From: Solibacillus sp. FSL R5-0449
GTDB lineage: Bacteria; Bacillota; Bacilli; Bacillales_A; Planococcaceae
Direction of reading: 5' to 3'
DNA length: 64,000 nucleotides
Assembly (NCBI RefSeq): GCF_037975215.1
Contig: NZ_CP150239.1
Coordinates: 1,712,001 to 1,776,000, forward strand
Position numbers and translations under genes: made by a program
Notes under the pieces: generated by a model
What the model saw: the letters and a program-made list of their open reading frames with translations, nothing else
What the model was told of the DNA's origin: nothing
The model's database searches: none
In this document: one piece after another, positions 2,148 to 54,864 of the stretch
How the letters are laid out: each line of letters opens with the position of its first letter
Position numbering within the stretch: position 1 is the first letter of the stretch

Positions 2148-3914
2148 CTATTGGGTGTTAGCAATAATTGCCTCAATAAATGTTTTACCGTATTTCTCCA
2201 ATTTGCTCTCCCCTACACCGCTAACTTCTAAAAATTGTGTACTGTTTTTAGGTTTACGAACACACATATCCTTTAACGATTTATCGGAGAAAACAACAAA
2301 AGGCGGAACTTTTTCCCGATCGGCAATTTCTTTGCGTATTTTACGAAGAATTTCAAATAGAGGATCATTTTGCTCTACTGTCGATTCAATAATACGCGCT
2401 TCTTTACGCAATACCTTTTTTTGTCCAAGCAGCACTTCTTTACCTTCATCGGAAATCGATAATGTCGGAAACTGCCCATTATTCACGACGATCAGTTTTT
2501 CTGAAATTAAAAACTCGATGAAGCTGGCAATCTCTTTCGCATTCATAGCACGTAAAATACCGTAAGTGGGCAGCTTTTGGAAATTGAATTCAAGCACTTT
2601 TTTACTGCGTGACCCAGCCAATACAGAAGCAGTTAACTGTTTCCCGAATTTCTGGCCCATTCGTACGATACATGACAATACTTTCTGTGCATCAGTCGTT
2701 ACATCCAGCTGAGGACGATCATCTGTACAATTCGCACATTTCCCGCAATCTTGACCTGCCTCATCACCAAAATACTCGATAATATAACTTTGAAGACAGC
2801 GCTCTGTATGACAGTAATCAATCATCGCATGCAGCTTTTGCAGTTCAAATGGAATTCGAGAACGATCTTGTGCCTGATCGATTAAAAAACGCTGTGTTTG
2901 TTCGTCGGAAGAGCTGTATAGTAATATACATTCACTATCCAGTCCATCACGTCCAGCACGTCCTGCCTCCTGATAATAACTCTCCATATTGCGTGGCATG
3001 TTGTAATGCAGCACATAGCGTACATTGGTCTTATTTATTCCCATACCAAAAGCATTTGTTGCGACCATTATTTGAACTTCATCATTTAAAAAGCGATTTT
3101 GTTCATATGTACGGTCTTCTTCAAACATACCACCATGATATTTCGCTACGGCAAAACCCGCTTTGTTCAGCATCTCATAGACCGCTTCCACCGATTTTCG
3201 AGTAGCGGCATAAATAATGCCTGCTTCATTTTCATTTGCTTTCACATATTTCTTTATATAGGCTTCTTTGTTTTCCCCAAGCAACACCGAAAATGTTAAA
3301 TTTTCACGTGCAAAACCGGTTATAAAAGTATTTTCCTTTTCAATGGAAAGAAGCTGTTGGATATCTGCACTTACCTCTTCAGTAGCAGTGGCTGTCAATG
3401 CAATAACAGTCGGTTTCTTTTTCCATAAATGCAACAGTTGCTGGATAGACCGGTAACTTGGACGGAAATCATGCCCCCACTGTGAAATACAATGTGCTTC
3501 ATCAATAGCTAATAACGGCACATTTATTTGGGAAAGTTCCATACAAAATCGCTCATTTTCAAGTCTTTCCGGAGCAATATAAAGCAATTTGATTTTACCG
3601 CTTTGTACACCATACATAACGTCTTGTACTTCTTCATAACTAAGTGAACTGTTAATGTAAGCAGCTGAAATCCCGCTCGACACAAGCATGTCTACCTGGT
3701 CTTTCATTAGAGAAATCAATGGTGAAATAACAAGTGTCGTACCTTCCATACATAAAGCTGGAATTTGATAGCAAAGGGATTTCCCTCCACCTGTTGGCAT
3801 AATAACAAGGGTATCTTGGTTATTTAACACATTATCGATAATTTGGGTTTGACCAGGACGGAAAGAGTCATAACCAAAGTTTGTTTTTAAATGTTGTAAT
3901 GCTAGTGAAATCAT
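2148..3914 (-). CDS. recQ: ATP-dependent DNA helicase RecQ
   Basis: 3'-5' superfamily 2 helicase of recombination and replication repair. The 588 residues carry Walker A TGGGKS (41-46), the DEAH box (138-141) within IDEAHCISQWGHDFRP, motif VI (YYQEAGRAGRDG), a four-cysteine zinc-binding RQC part (Cys near 369-397, including CGKCANC) and a C-terminal HRDC domain (about 510-588). Length fits the full-length RecQ of Bacillus rather than shorter RecS. ATG follows TAGGAGGGATT. A sigma-A promoter lies just upstream, touching the edge of the repeat block at 3973. Confidence 0.96.
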   Translation of the reverse strand: MISLALQHLKTNFGYDSFRPGQTQIIDNVLNNQDTLVIMPTGGGKSLCYQIPALCMEGTTLVISPLISLMKDQVDMLVSSGISAAYINSSLSYEEVQDVMYGVQSGKIKLLYIAPERLENERFCMELSQINVPLLAIDEAHCISQWGHDFRPSYRSIQQLLHLWKKKPTVIALTATATEEVSADIQQLLSIEKENTFITGFARENLTFSVLLGENKEAYIKKYVKANENEAGIIYAATRKSVEAVYEMLNKAGFAVAKYHGGMFEEDRTYEQNRFLNDEVQIMVATNAFGMGINKTNVRYVLHYNMPRNMESYYQEAGRAGRDGLDSECILLYSSSDEQTQRFLIDQAQDRSRIPFELQKLHAMIDYCHTERCLQSYIIEYFGDEAGQDCGKCANCTDDRPQLDVTTDAQKVLSCIVRMGQKFGKQLTASVLAGSRSKKVLEFNFQKLPTYGILRAMNAKEIASFIEFLISEKLIVVNNGQFPTLSISDEGKEVLLGQKKVLRKEARIIESTVEQNDPLFEILRKIRKEIADREKVPPFVVFSDKSLKDMCVRKPKNSTQFLEVSGVGESKLEKYGKTFIEAIIANTQ

Positions 3915-3972: not shown

Positions 3973-4610
3973 GGGAGTTTAGTTTACATAATATAGTTAT
4001 TGAGTTATTTACTCTAATACATTGAATAGATTTTCGATGATATGTCCCCTATTTTCAATAATTTCGACATATAAAAATAGAACCCTTTCTTTATCTAGAA
4101 ACAATTTATTTGCATTATTTTATGGTTTGGTTTACTTCTTAATTGCTTATTTTAGTATATAATTTTCTAATATATAGTGTCGGATAATATGTATAGTTTT
4201 AAAAAGGGGTTGTATAACTGTTCCAATTGGGCTGGGGTTCTGTGGTATTTTCTAATAAAATTCTAAAAGTTCTAATATAAATTTATTTGTTCTAATAAAA
4301 GTCGGATGTTCTAATATATCAACGTGTTATTCAAATAAATAGACTGAATGTTCTAATAATGTAGAGGGATCTTCTAATATCAATCCCCCATCTTCTAATA
4401 AAGCACTGAATTGTTCTAATAAAAATCAAAGTTAAGTTCTTCCCTAGTAACTCATCTGTCAGAAGCATTGATCGGCACGATTCTTTCTAATATCGAGTCA
4501 AAATGTTCTAATATCTTCCCGGCTTCTTCTAATAAGCCCCTCCGATTTTCTAATAAAACCTCAAACATTAATATAGTAAACTATAATCAGATTATGTAAA
4601 CTAAATCCCC
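3973..4610. repeat. Non-coding block with terminal inverted repeats around a 21-bp repeat array
   Basis: The 740-bp space between the MFS gene and recQ holds no credible gene. Its ends carry GGGAGTTTAGTTTACATAAT (3973-3992) and ATTATGTAAACTAAATCCCC (4591-4610), inverted copies matching at 18 of 20 positions. Weaker similarity continues inward for about 8 bp. The block resembles a small non-autonomous element in outline, but no transposase and no obvious target duplication is visible. The MFS terminator and the recQ promoter both lie just outside it. Confidence 0.6.
4165..4557. repeat. Array of 13 TTCTAATA units with 21-bp periodicity
   Basis: Exact TTCTAATA starts at 4165, 4250, 4270, 4290, 4309, 4351, 4372, 4393, 4414, 4485, 4506, 4527 and 4548; degenerate units sit at 4261 and 4330. 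Spacing is exactly 21 bp from 4351 to 4414 and from 4485 to 4548, 42 bp from 4309 to 4351, and 19-20 bp from 4270 to 4309. The 11-13 bp between cores are mostly unique, and the base after the core is usually A or T. Twenty-one bp is two helical turns (and seven codons). On the minus strand short stretches read as LLE-x4 or IR-x5 heptads, but stops interrupt both frames. Confidence 0.85.
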
Positions 4611-4611
4611 T

Positions 4612-4650
4612 TCATCAAAAAAAGAAGTGACTGAACCGAATCAGACACTC
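4612..4650 (-). terminator. Terminator of the MFS gene
   Basis: AGTGACTGA (4626-4634) / TCAGACACT (4641-4649); minus-strand T-run follows. Confidence 0.8.
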
Positions 4651-4655
4651 CTCCA

Positions 4656-5837
4656 TTATACTGATTTCTTTTGCCTTTGCATTCTCATAATCGAAAGTGA
4701 CATAAAAGCGAATAATATGACGATAATCCACTTCGTAACATAATGCGTACCGGTCACATCATACACAATTCCGATAATAAGTGGAACAATCGCACTCATC
4801 ATAAAACCGCCAGACAATACCATGGAGCTCCATTCATTTGCTTCGGCTTTATTTTTTGCTTCATCCAAAGGAAGCATTAACCCGATCGGGAATAATCCGC
4901 TAAGTACAAAACCGAAAACTACCGCGCTCACCCAAATTGCCCAAACTTCATTGATAAAAAATACAGCCGAACCGAATAGCCCCACCATAATTAAACTATG
5001 CAGCCATATGATTCGGTTGGGATAACGATTAATGAAAGATGGAATCAGTAAATTCCCTGCCAGCTGTACGATGGTTATCAATGTTAAGACAGAACCAGCC
5101 GTTAACAAGGCCATCTCCTGTTCCAGCGCTACGGAAGTGAGCCATGTCGTCAAACTGAAAAACAGTGACGTTTGGAAACCGAAAAATAAAAGAATCGACC
5201 AGGCTACTTTATTTTTCCATGGATTTCGCCTCTCCACGGTCTGAGAACTAATACTAGATGTAACACCTGAATCCTTCACGACAGTAAACCAGCTGATCAT
5301 CGCGATAATGGCCAATACACCCCATATTCCTAATGCAAGTGACCAATTCCCGTCGAATGTCTTATATATAATAGCCGTGAAACCGGCACTTAATGTAGCT
5401 CCGAACCCCATCGCAAAGGAATAGACCCCAATGACCGGTTCCATTTTTGTCGGAAACATTTCTTTTATATAGGCATTAATAATCGGACTGATGATCGCAA
5501 TTGCAAATCCTGCCAAGAAACTCGTTACAATGAGTGCACCATAATTCGAAAATACAATTCTTGCCGCCGTAGCAAGACCGATCAAGGCGATTAAAATGGT
5601 AACCGACCAGCGATACCCGTACTTTTTTTGTATTGGTACTGCCAAAGGAGCAAACAGGCCCATACAAAATACCGGGATTGAGGTCAGTAAACTCATATGG
5701 GTACTCGAAACTTGTAAAGCTTCCCTTATTGTCGATAGAATTGGACCGACAGATGTAATAGCCGGACGCAGATTGATGGAAACAAGTATAATCGAAAAAA
5801 TAATGAAAACAGATTTTCCTTTTGATAATTGCTTCAT
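4656..5837 (-). CDS. MFS transporter, CynX/NimT (YycB-like) family
   Basis: Integral membrane transporter of 393 residues with about 12 hydrophobic segments. The start region (INLRPAITSVGPIL) and overall pattern match the CynX/NimT family (cyanate/nitroimidazole-type permeases; YycB in B. subtilis). Substrate cannot be told from sequence. ATG at 5837 follows GAGGAACGAAAT. The gene's first six codons, its RBS and upstream DNA are duplicated in tandem (5819-6004), so a second RBS-plus-ATG lies 93 bp upstream and opens a 23-codon ORF. Confidence 0.85.
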   Translation of the reverse strand: MKQLSKGKSVFIIFSIILVSINLRPAITSVGPILSTIREALQVSSTHMSLLTSIPVFCMGLFAPLAVPIQKKYGYRWSVTILIALIGLATAARIVFSNYGALIVTSFLAGFAIAIISPIINAYIKEMFPTKMEPVIGVYSFAMGFGATLSAGFTAIIYKTFDGNWSLALGIWGVLAIIAMISWFTVVKDSGVTSSISSQTVERRNPWKNKVAWSILLFFGFQTSLFFSLTTWLTSVALEQEMALLTAGSVLTLITIVQLAGNLLIPSFINRYPNRIIWLHSLIMVGLFGSAVFFINEVWAIWVSAVVFGFVLSGLFPIGLMLPLDEAKNKAEANEWSSMVLSGGFMMSAIVPLIIGIVYDVTGTHYVTKWIIVILFAFMSLSIMRMQRQKKSV

Positions 5838-6004
5838 ATTTCGTTCCTCGTTTCTCTTTTAATAACTCCATCGTAAAACGGATGAAAATGTATGACCATT
5901 AAATGATTTTGCTTTTGATAATTGCTTCATATTTCGTTCCTCGTTTCTCTTTTAATAACTCCATCGTAAAACGGATGAAAATGTATGACCATTAAATGAT
6001 TTTG
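5819..6004. repeat. Perfect 93-bp tandem duplication over the MFS start
   Basis: Bases 5819-5911 are repeated without visible mismatch at 5912-6004. The unit carries the RBS, ATG and first codons of the transporter. The period is a multiple of three, so the upstream ATG (5930) is in frame with the gene but stops after 23 codons (MKQLSKAKSFN...) before reaching it. The lack of divergence indicates a recent event. The rest of the 309-bp gap to ykpA holds the ykpA promoter and leader. Confidence 0.9.
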
Positions 6005-6039
6005 CTTTATAAGATTCGTTTATTTCCGATGCGCTGTTA

Positions 6040-9687: not shown

Positions 9688-9888
9688 TTATAATTTGATT
9701 ACATTAGATGCTTGTGGTCCGCGGTTGCCATCTACAACTTCGAATTCCACTTGTTGTCCTTCTTCCAATGTTTTGAAACCTTCACCTTGAATTGCAGAGA
9801 AGTGTACGAATACATCGTTTTCTCCTTCTACCTCGATGAAGCCAAAACCTTTTTCTGAGTTAAACCATTTTACTGTACCTTGTTTCAT
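9688..9888 (-). CDS. Cold-shock protein (CspA/CspB family)
   Basis: Single-stranded nucleic-acid-binding RNA chaperone, one cold-shock domain of 66 residues. RNP1 (KGFGFIEV) and RNP2 (VFVHF) are intact, as is the [12 protein letters not shown] start. ATG 9888 is 8 bases after GGAGGT; the preceding TTG is not needed. It is transcribed alone, from a strong promoter through a 139-nt leader that contains a terminator-like hairpin, typical of cold-shock genes controlled after transcription starts. Confidence 0.96.
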
Positions 9889-54294: not shown

Positions 54295-54864
54295 TTATTT
54301 GTTATCACTTTTATATTTTTCATGAACAGATGTCTCATGTACCGGTTCATCAGGTATACGGTTATACGATTCTTTCTCGGTTTCAACAATTGTTTCTTGT
54401 TGCTGATTCCCTTCTACGTGACTGCGTTCATTATAAGATTTCATCTCTTCATCATTACGTTCATCCGGTAAACGGTTATAGGATTCCTTTACAGTTTCAA
54501 AAGATTTGTCTGTATGTCCGGTCCCTTCTACATGGCTGCGTTCATTGTAGTCTTTCATTTTTTCTTCATCACGCTCATCCGGTAAGCGGTTATAGGATTC
54601 TTTATTCGTTTCTAGGCTTTTTTTTTCCTCGTTTCCTTCGACATGACTGCGTTCATTATAGTTTTCCATTTCCTTATCATCACGCTCATCCGGTAAACGG
54701 TTAAACGATTCTTTATTCGTTTTAAGCAATAAATCATCTTTCATTGATTCGTTTTGTACATTTACGTGATTCGTTTCATCAAATTTTTCTACTTTCTCGT
54801 CTTTACGTTCATCAGGTAAGCGGTTATATGATTTTTTGTTTGTTTCAGATTCTTTGTTTCCCAT
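54295..54864 (-). CDS. Charged tandem-repeat protein (NRLPDER repeats)
   Basis: 189-residue, highly charged, apparently disordered soluble protein made of four full repeats and one partial of 37-41 residues. Consensus start of each unit is T-x-K-E-S-Y-N-R-L-P-D-E-R, followed by YNERSHVEG in the three central units. Unit starts lie near residues 9, 50, 87, 125 and 163. Units 2-4 are the most alike. No signal peptide or membrane span. I recognise no family; proteins of this texture in spore-formers are sometimes spore-coat or core components. RBS TAGGAGG. Confidence 0.7.
   Translation of the reverse strand: MGNKESETNKKSYNRLPDERKDEKVEKFDETNHVNVQNESMKDDLLLKTNKESFNRLPDERDDKEMENYNERSHVEGNEEKKSLETNKESYNRLPDERDEEKMKDYNERSHVEGTGHTDKSFETVKESYNRLPDERNDEEMKSYNERSHVEGNQQQETIVETEKESYNRIPDEPVHETSVHEKYKSDNK

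Follow-up and report, generated by a model that had tools for sequence, protein, structure and literature searches.

The described systems closest to the arrays reported here are of several kinds. REP/BIME and BOX elements are made of palindromic or stem-forming short units, and iterons are found at one or few replication loci, where repeats that are alike over most of their length are bound in phase by one protein. BldC distorts the DNA on which it is loaded head to tail; the direct repeats at its promoters vary in number, and each subunit occupies a 9-bp site (PMC5859096). The TIGR arrays have two alternating repeats (8-12 nt), 9-nt spacers, an adjoining Tas gene and a 36-nt RNA (PMC12045711).

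The window, that is, the whole 64-kb stretch of DNA that was analysed, contains an array of the 8-mer TTCTAATA between a recQ-like gene and a gene for an MFS-type transporter (Table 1). According to a preliminary description of this DNA, thirteen exact copies fall within 390 bp and two runs of four are spaced by exactly 21 bp. Both counts are correct: all thirteen copies lie on the + strand, and the two runs are those at 4351-4414 and 4485-4548. In the whole window there are 16 exact copies, whereas in 100 dinucleotide-preserving shuffles the count averaged 4.59 and never exceeded 10. Equal periodicity in shuffled AT-matched sequence had been named as a possible refutation, and this outcome did not occur. 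Most of the other steps had been given as 19-21 or 42 bp. The steps were found as described, but the 42-bp gap between 4309 and 4351 holds at 4330 a variant core, TTCAAATA, with one mismatch to TTCTAATA, and because of this core the lattice of the window runs without a break. Among 69 arrays, the A variant of the core has a frequency of 11% at the window's place and peaks at 50% one core further on (columns 81-88). The array had also been considered to begin at 4165; its copies are indeed exact, but the element proper extends over 4250-4555 and comprises nine cores, a linker and then four cores, while the copy at 4165 is 85 bp away from the next core and off the conserved architecture. At the place of this copy G003 has TTCTATTA, and the core was not seen in G005 and G007 by eye; on sequence grounds, it probably lies outside the element. 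The 64-kb window was also scanned blindly for exact 7-mers with four copies at a common period, all periods of 12-39 bp being allowed and the spacers having to be less than 60% alike. There were two matches, both of period 21 and both corresponding to the recQ-side array.

Table 1. Features of the array locus in the 64-kb window (positions are those of the window).
Feature	Position	Strand	Remarks
recQ-like helicase gene, left of the array	2148..3914	-	ORF, named by eye; 5' end toward the array
Lone TTCTAATA outside the conserved architecture	4165..4172	+	Relatives without it (by eye)
Left flank, G/T-rich	4210..4249	+	Read from sequence
Module A, nine cores	4250..4421	+	Exact cores at 4250, 4270, 4290, 4309, 4351, 4372, 4393, 4414; variant at 4330; steps 20-20-19-21-21-21-21-21
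Variant core TTCAAATA	4330..4337	+	Read from sequence
Inter-module linker	4422..4484	+	71 bp from core start to core start
Module B, four cores	4485..4555	+	Exact cores at 4485, 4506, 4527, 4548; spacings 21-21-21
Right flank, A-rich in the window, A/C-rich across all arrays	4556..4595	+	Read from sequence
Hairpin and T-run resembling an intrinsic terminator of the MFS-type gene, separating this gene from the array	4617..4648	-	Read from sequence
MFS-type transporter ORF, right of the array	4656..5837	-	ORF; putative name by eye

Two other repeats were observed in the window. At 5812-6008, at the 5' end of the MFS-type gene, there is a 93-bp tandem duplication (99% alike, 2.1 copies) that repeats the start of this gene and its upstream region, and at 54347-54722 there is an imperfect tandem repeat with a period of ~111-114 bp and about three copies.

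The preliminary description proposed to search for the motif in related genomes, and the window's own genome alone (G000; 3,582,823 bp in one contig) contains 53 anchors. These were identified by a triple of cores at 20- and 19-bp steps (at most 3 mismatches), for which the reversed pattern gave 0 matches; in the same genome 325 pairs of cores lie 9-15 bp apart, again with 0 matches for the reversed pattern. The architecture is near-constant across loci, with steps of 20/21, 20, 19, 21, 21, 21, 21 and 20/21 bp, and it must be taken into account that the 20-19 spacing was fixed in the triple, so that those two steps result from selection of the anchors, which is not the case for the other steps, the linkers or module B. 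A core (at most 1 mismatch) is present at all nine lattice places in 43 of the 53 anchors, at eight places in six, at seven and at six in one each and at three in two. The first module is followed by a second one in 31/53 anchors, mostly at a distance of 81-82 or 71-72 bp and usually as four cores at 21 bp, and some loci have tandem copies of the array or extra modules. For locus counts, the anchors and one more cluster were handled as 47 loci. The kept unit is wider than the core and reads approximately W-T-B-TTCTAATA-W-M (69 arrays). Sixty-six arrays align without gaps, which is partly by choice, since both the fixed 131-bp cut and the core-score filter favour it; this alignment (A1) was obtained from 72 anchors (at most 2 mismatches, loci of G000 and G008) after removal of 3 with a low core score and 3 near-duplicates. 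The 113 R1 matches in G000 do not give the number of arrays, since some of them are shifted or partial. As to position along the chromosome, the stretch of the G000 contig (C1) from 1.87 to 2.61 Mb, a fifth of the chromosome, holds only one of the 53 anchors. The contig, which seems to start near dnaA, also lacks anchors in its first 128 kb.

It had been suggested that all cores lie on one face of the helix, and this is supported by the linkers, which change by whole helical turns. All gaps of 23-150 bp that separate adjacent modules, each with three or more cores, were taken from the loci of five genomes (n=126). The lengths of 117 of these linkers are 38-40, 49-50, 59-62, 70-72, 80-83 and 91-92 bp, with single cases of 121 and 132 bp; the clusters are thus placed at ~39, 50, 60, 71, 81 and 92 bp, rarely 121 and 132 bp, in steps of 10.3-10.4 bp, which is the helical repeat of B-DNA. 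The best period for the 117 linkers (20 distinct lengths) is 10.35 bp (R 0.82), and the eight cluster centres differ from uniform placement with p = 0.0003 (best period within 10-11) or p = 0.00065 (10.5 fixed), p values that ignore kinship among linkers related by descent, which are not independent. The nine excluded linkers (42, 63 and 143-145 bp) equal normal steps with lost cores, and their exclusion was chosen after seeing the data; when all 25 distinct lengths are included, R is 0.76 at the best period of 10.4 bp and 0.74 at 10.5 bp. Within runs (18-22 bp, five genomes), the start-to-start steps are of 19 (147 cases), 20 (268), 21 (1039) and 22 bp (3). With the linker exclusions given above, the arrays are direct repeats that keep helical phase, as is expected of a phased array. 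Linker lengths in whole helical turns give direct support for phasing on DNA, since steps of one B-DNA turn are predicted by phasing at the DNA level and not at the RNA level. We consider helically phased DNA recognition to be well supported.

The comparison between species showed which parts of the element are maintained. Array pairs at the same place were aligned (10 with G008, 12 with G003, 12 with G005 and 15 with G007, 49 in all), drawn from 20 loci per species, with wide tandem arrays and loci of no clear partner left out. For G008, G003, G005 and G007, respectively, the identity of the cores is 0.966, 0.981, 0.972 and 0.971, with 0, 0, 0 and 1 gap openings, whereas that of the spacers is 0.729, 0.804, 0.804 and 0.796, with 1, 5, 4 and 8 gap openings (0.8-4.3 per kb). 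For the linkers, the identity is 0.67-0.74, with 4.7-8.3 gap openings per kb. In the adjacent 60 bp the identity is 0.731, 0.781, 0.723 and 0.740, with 22, 36, 37 and 31 gap openings (17-26 per kb), and in the outer flanks, 150-700 bp off and mostly coding, it is 0.87-0.89, with 2.7-3.3 gap openings per kb. The spacers therefore differ by substitution and have 4 to 22 times fewer indels than nearby intergenic DNA of like divergence, considering that the adjacent 60 bp may align poorly and that gap openings are not rarer in the spacers than in the outer, mostly coding flanks; a smaller separate comparison gave the same direction. As the spacers are about as divergent as the adjacent DNA and have a low gap rate, it follows that their letters drift freely while their length changes no more often than coding DNA does. 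Cores and spacing are under selection. The initial view that cores are conserved and spacers are not thus holds between species (97-98% versus 73-80%), and at the recQ locus of relatives the spacers have changed and the cores and the spacing were kept.

Outside the window's genome the arrays have a narrow distribution. The triple (at most 2 mismatches) occurs in 8 of 16 Solibacillus genomes and in 0 of 105 others; in this search G001 gave one match with the control pattern. Four cores at 21 bp (at most 3 mismatches) were found in 16 of 261 genomes of the family, namely in 11 of the 16 Solibacillus, in four of genus g11 and in G054, where the match (L163) reads by eye like a coding repeat and was rejected as an array. 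The five Solibacillus species with no four-core match indicate that the array system is not essential to the genus. A single match was obtained for G294 in the four-core search, and weak R1 matches at E <= 0.01 for G009 (3), G002 (1) and G014 (2). The g11 arrays that were read have four cores, a further core-to-core distance of ~40 bp and a repeat unit of ~103 bp, and the arrays of Ureibacillus manganicus are of this form. Records of Odoribacteraceae, Clostridia, Pectinatus, Acidobacteria and Chlamydiae contain five exact cores at 21 bp, but these matches in unrelated groups look like plain tandem repeats, because their spacers are near-identical by eye, and they were discarded. As listed, L157 (G001) and L159 (G015) are short six-core arrays directly upstream of an ArsR-like regulator gene (by eye).

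Other words were found on the same lattice. The reversed six-mer ATAATC, meant as a null, has matches in 9 of 398 genomes. They were read in seven of the nine, G018 and G168 lying outside this reading, and real 21-bp arrays were recognised among them: arrays of ATAATCGCC in G025, G059 and G043, of ATAATCGATCGA in G019, of ATAATCACTACG in G493 and of TAATCCCAGTTT in G350, the last two genomes belonging to another family, and of ATAATCCTCA in the window's own genome. G043 also carries GACTAATA/GGCTAATA arrays with modules of ~103 bp, and G302, G065 and G289 have further core variants by eye. A second core, AAGTGAGGAWTA, is present in 5 of the 16 Solibacillus genomes and in no other among the 261 (arrays at L116 near 9743-9850, L171, L279 and L280). 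By group, AAGTGAGGAWTA is a Solibacillus word like that of the window, a second genus has TTCTAATA, GACTAATA and ATAATCGCC, and the others belong to a third genus and another family. Moreover, the blind scan of 400 kb of the own genome away from the arrays gave one four-copy lattice (periods 12-39), which has period 21 and the core AAGTGAG and represents this second core; when three copies were accepted, periods 12, 18 and 24 appeared once each and 21 two or three times, mostly in the same array. The period seems to be constant and the word lineage-dependent. We know of no other element in which the word can be exchanged while a 21-bp lattice stays fixed, and the matches listed in the open-licence literature include no description of such arrays, in agreement with the earlier statement that no described element has this layout. 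By eye, two lattices with different words share one gap in G288 (L154, L155), where words similar to TTGGCGAATA follow each other every 21 bp next to TTCTAATA arrays, and G298 (L149, ~710-880) shows repeated ATAATAGACA-like words beside a TTCTAATA array.

A recQ orthologue is present in all 16 Solibacillus genomes, and the array lies upstream of it in four species (G000, G003, G005 and G007; 8-9 cores in a run), while the other 12 have no two neighbouring cores at this locus. Absence of the motif both at the recQ locus of relatives and elsewhere in the genome, which the preliminary description regarded as evidence against its proposal, was therefore not what we found, given these four species and the 53 anchors. 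The window array is flanked by the inverted arms AGTTTACATAA/TTATGTAAACT (3981-3991 and 4592-4602; also in L090-L093). In G002, G009, G010 and G014 only 16 bp separate the arms. In G000, G003, G005 and G007 they lie on both sides of the array at a distance of 610-623 bp, and in G004, G006 and G012 they are 1.34-1.38 kb apart and enclose an ORF of 1.13-1.14 kb; the recQ locus of G008 has 677 bp with a 78% match to the insert of G012. A site can thus gain or lose an array. The arms were discarded as general array ends, being specific to the recQ locus within the scanned DNA: among the 47 loci they are found at the window locus and in one stray copy (L049), and there are 0 in the 400-kb sample and 0 in 20 loci of G008.

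The 49 distinct intergenic gaps with arrays comprise 17 convergent, 2 divergent and 30 codirectional gene pairs, in comparison with 54, 52 and 219 in a background of 20 stretches of 20 kb. Genes were called as ORFs by a simple procedure, with a minimum of 80 codons next to arrays and of 100 for the background, and the ORFs that it placed across the array in 10/53 anchors were treated as spurious. The enrichment of convergent pairs has p = 0.005, and convergent versus divergent p = 0.002; of the two divergent pairs, that at L055 is probably an ORF artefact. The core strand in codirectional gaps is opposite to the genes in 20 and the same in 10, which is not significant (p = 0.10). Between array and gene, terminator-like sites were detected at 20/27 left and 31/37 right gene ends, against 3/27 and 5/37 in the wrong-strand control, and most arrays are thus located behind terminators; in codirectional gaps, including that of the window, the other side of the array is toward a gene start. 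The 40 bp to the left of the 53 arrays have a G+T content of 0.63 and a GC skew of +0.33, and the 40 bp to the right 0.29 and -0.47, values to which the terminators contribute.

We propose, with a probability of roughly 0.6, that the arrays are helically phased, head-to-tail binding arrays for one putative sequence-specific DNA-binding protein; we infer both the binding of a protein and its cooperativity. Each array would be a DNA platform of 4 to 13 or more sites, and the protein would read ~12 bp around TTCTAATA (~W-T-B-TTCTAATA-W-M), loading head to tail on one helix face at two-turn intervals and also across the linkers, which keep the phase. The arrays could thereby hold or wrap DNA and limit transcription or supercoils between neighbours. 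Related lineages keep the 21-bp lattice and swap the core, as if protein and core co-evolved. Since convergent pairs are favoured and divergent promoters avoided, a role as anchor or insulator is likelier than promoter control, although a function as anchor, insulator or supercoil boundary is speculative. The reader may turn out to be a nucleoid protein that is already known. The one class of candidate reader that was examined is HTH_17 (PF12728, E <= 0.001), which we take to be the domain of BldC-like proteins: it has matches in 13 of 16 Solibacillus genomes and none in G000, G008 and G009. As G000 and G008 are array-rich, a BldC-like reader is not supported, and the reader is either something else or undetected. 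A 1076-aa ORF of G003 (L273:3386-6616) with four HTH_17 matches was considered as a tandem reader and dropped, because it lies among recombinase-/transposase-like ORFs (by eye) and G000 has no HTH_17.

A selfish dispersed repeat, in which the cores would be sites for a mobilising transposase or recombinase with no host role, is an unlikely explanation but one that accounts for several observations. At recQ there was gain or loss, the slot holding an array in 4 of 16 species, the ORF of 1.13-1.14 kb in three and a similar stretch in one; several arrays are tandem duplicates, five Solibacillus species had no four-core match, and insertion behind genes is tolerated. However, copies at the same place keep their cores (97-98%) and spacer lengths, both of which dead copies would lose, and we favour a DNA scaffold over a repeat that is selfish only, given that copies at one site remain intact although their spacers drift. 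Moreover, the 200-bp flanks have no shared inverted repeat (longest exact arms of 6-11 bp in all of the 44 loci, out of 47, that were scored), and viral contigs contain 0 stretches with four exact cores at 21 bp, which also led us to discard a phage-borne element. A REP/BIME/MITE-like repeat was discarded as well, there being no palindromic unit, no terminal inverted repeats and no stem in the aligned module. Nevertheless, a mobilising enzyme, instead of a host function, could be what keeps the cores and the architecture. It is quite improbable that intrinsic DNA shape suffices, AT-rich cores two turns apart curving or softening the DNA for an HU-like nucleoid protein with no specific reader. 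The AT-rich cores do alternate with GC-richer spacer centres (69 arrays) and the phase is kept, but the conserved word is an asymmetric 8-mer whose position 3 is C in 100% of these arrays at six of seven aligned cores and in 98% at the seventh, which is more than shape should require, and some lineages with words other than TTCTAATA have GC-containing cores on the same lattice.

An array acting as RNA, the repeats being transcribed and then either bound by a protein or turned into guides or sponges, would recall the core and short-spacer layout of TIGR arrays (PMC12045711), yet we regard it as very improbable. RNA offers no explanation for linkers that step by one turn of B-DNA, the arrays are behind terminators, the core strand is not fixed relative to the neighbouring genes, and the spacer differences are substitutions. 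Indeed, the window array folds more weakly than the shuffle mean on both strands (z 1.13 and 1.99), the consensus fold of the 66 aligned arrays has 0 base pairs and no stem, and the three Rfam matches are all far below their gathering scores (18.7 versus 40, 18 versus 60 and 15.3 versus 40); a structured RNA or an Rfam family is not supported by these folds, covariance scores and absence of consensus pairs. The preliminary description offered as its own alternative a decayed coding repeat, and such a repeat of seven codons, decayed or live, is hardly credible. A frame can stay open across 21 bp (seven codons) and across the common linker of 81 bp (27 codons), and ORFs of at least 80 codons lie over 15/53 anchors. 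This overlap is on the high side but within chance, as shuffling the spacer letters in place (40 rounds) gave a mean of 9.6 and a range of 4-16, and the conserved 19- and 20-bp steps and many linkers, such as those of 71 or 82 bp, break frames; the window array has no overlapping ORF of at least 60 aa. The coding repeat was rejected on these grounds.

If the binding-array reading is true, the arrays are a chromosome-wide element whose geometry is selected more strongly than most of its sequence, and it predicts a DNA-binding protein that could be retrieved with one DNA fragment. Their naturally varying spacers, linkers and core words would also serve to study how phased binding shapes bacterial chromosomes, and since the core words turn over while the lattice stays constant, the co-evolution of protein and DNA can be tested directly. 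A broader reading, which we hold tentatively and at somewhat less than even odds, is that the 21-bp lattice is a general, unrecognised chromosome element of Bacilli, with lineage words such as TTCTAATA, AAGTGAGGAWTA, ATAATCGCC, ATAATCGATCGA, ATAATCACTACG and TAATCCCAGTTT, each with a co-evolving reader that would polymerise along one DNA face behind genes and set local chromosome structure. It would then represent a bacterial phased scaffold.

In comparison with the systems described at the outset, iterons of plasmid origins resemble the arrays as direct repeats about two helical turns apart, which in iterons are bound in phase by one protein, whereas the arrays keep only 8-12 of 21 bp and occupy dozens of chromosomal sites. 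REP/BIME elements and REPINs (for REPINs, PMC3116915) are like the arrays in having tens of intergenic copies per chromosome, often at gene ends; in contrast, the arrays consist of direct repeats of an asymmetric unit placed on a helical lattice, they lack a stem, their spacers drift and their linkers step by whole turns. TIGR arrays share repeats of the 8-bp class and short variable spacers (PMC12045711), but our arrays have one core throughout, spacers of 11-13 nt, dozens of loci and one-turn linker steps. A TIGR array was therefore rejected, as there are no alternating repeats with 9-nt spacers and the steps are of 19-22 bp. Finally, the BldC operators (PMC5859096) demonstrate that loading of the proposed kind exists, one protein being placed head to tail on direct repeats; two array-rich genomes have no HTH_17 match, and the sites of the arrays, unlike those of BldC, are 21 bp apart and mostly behind genes.
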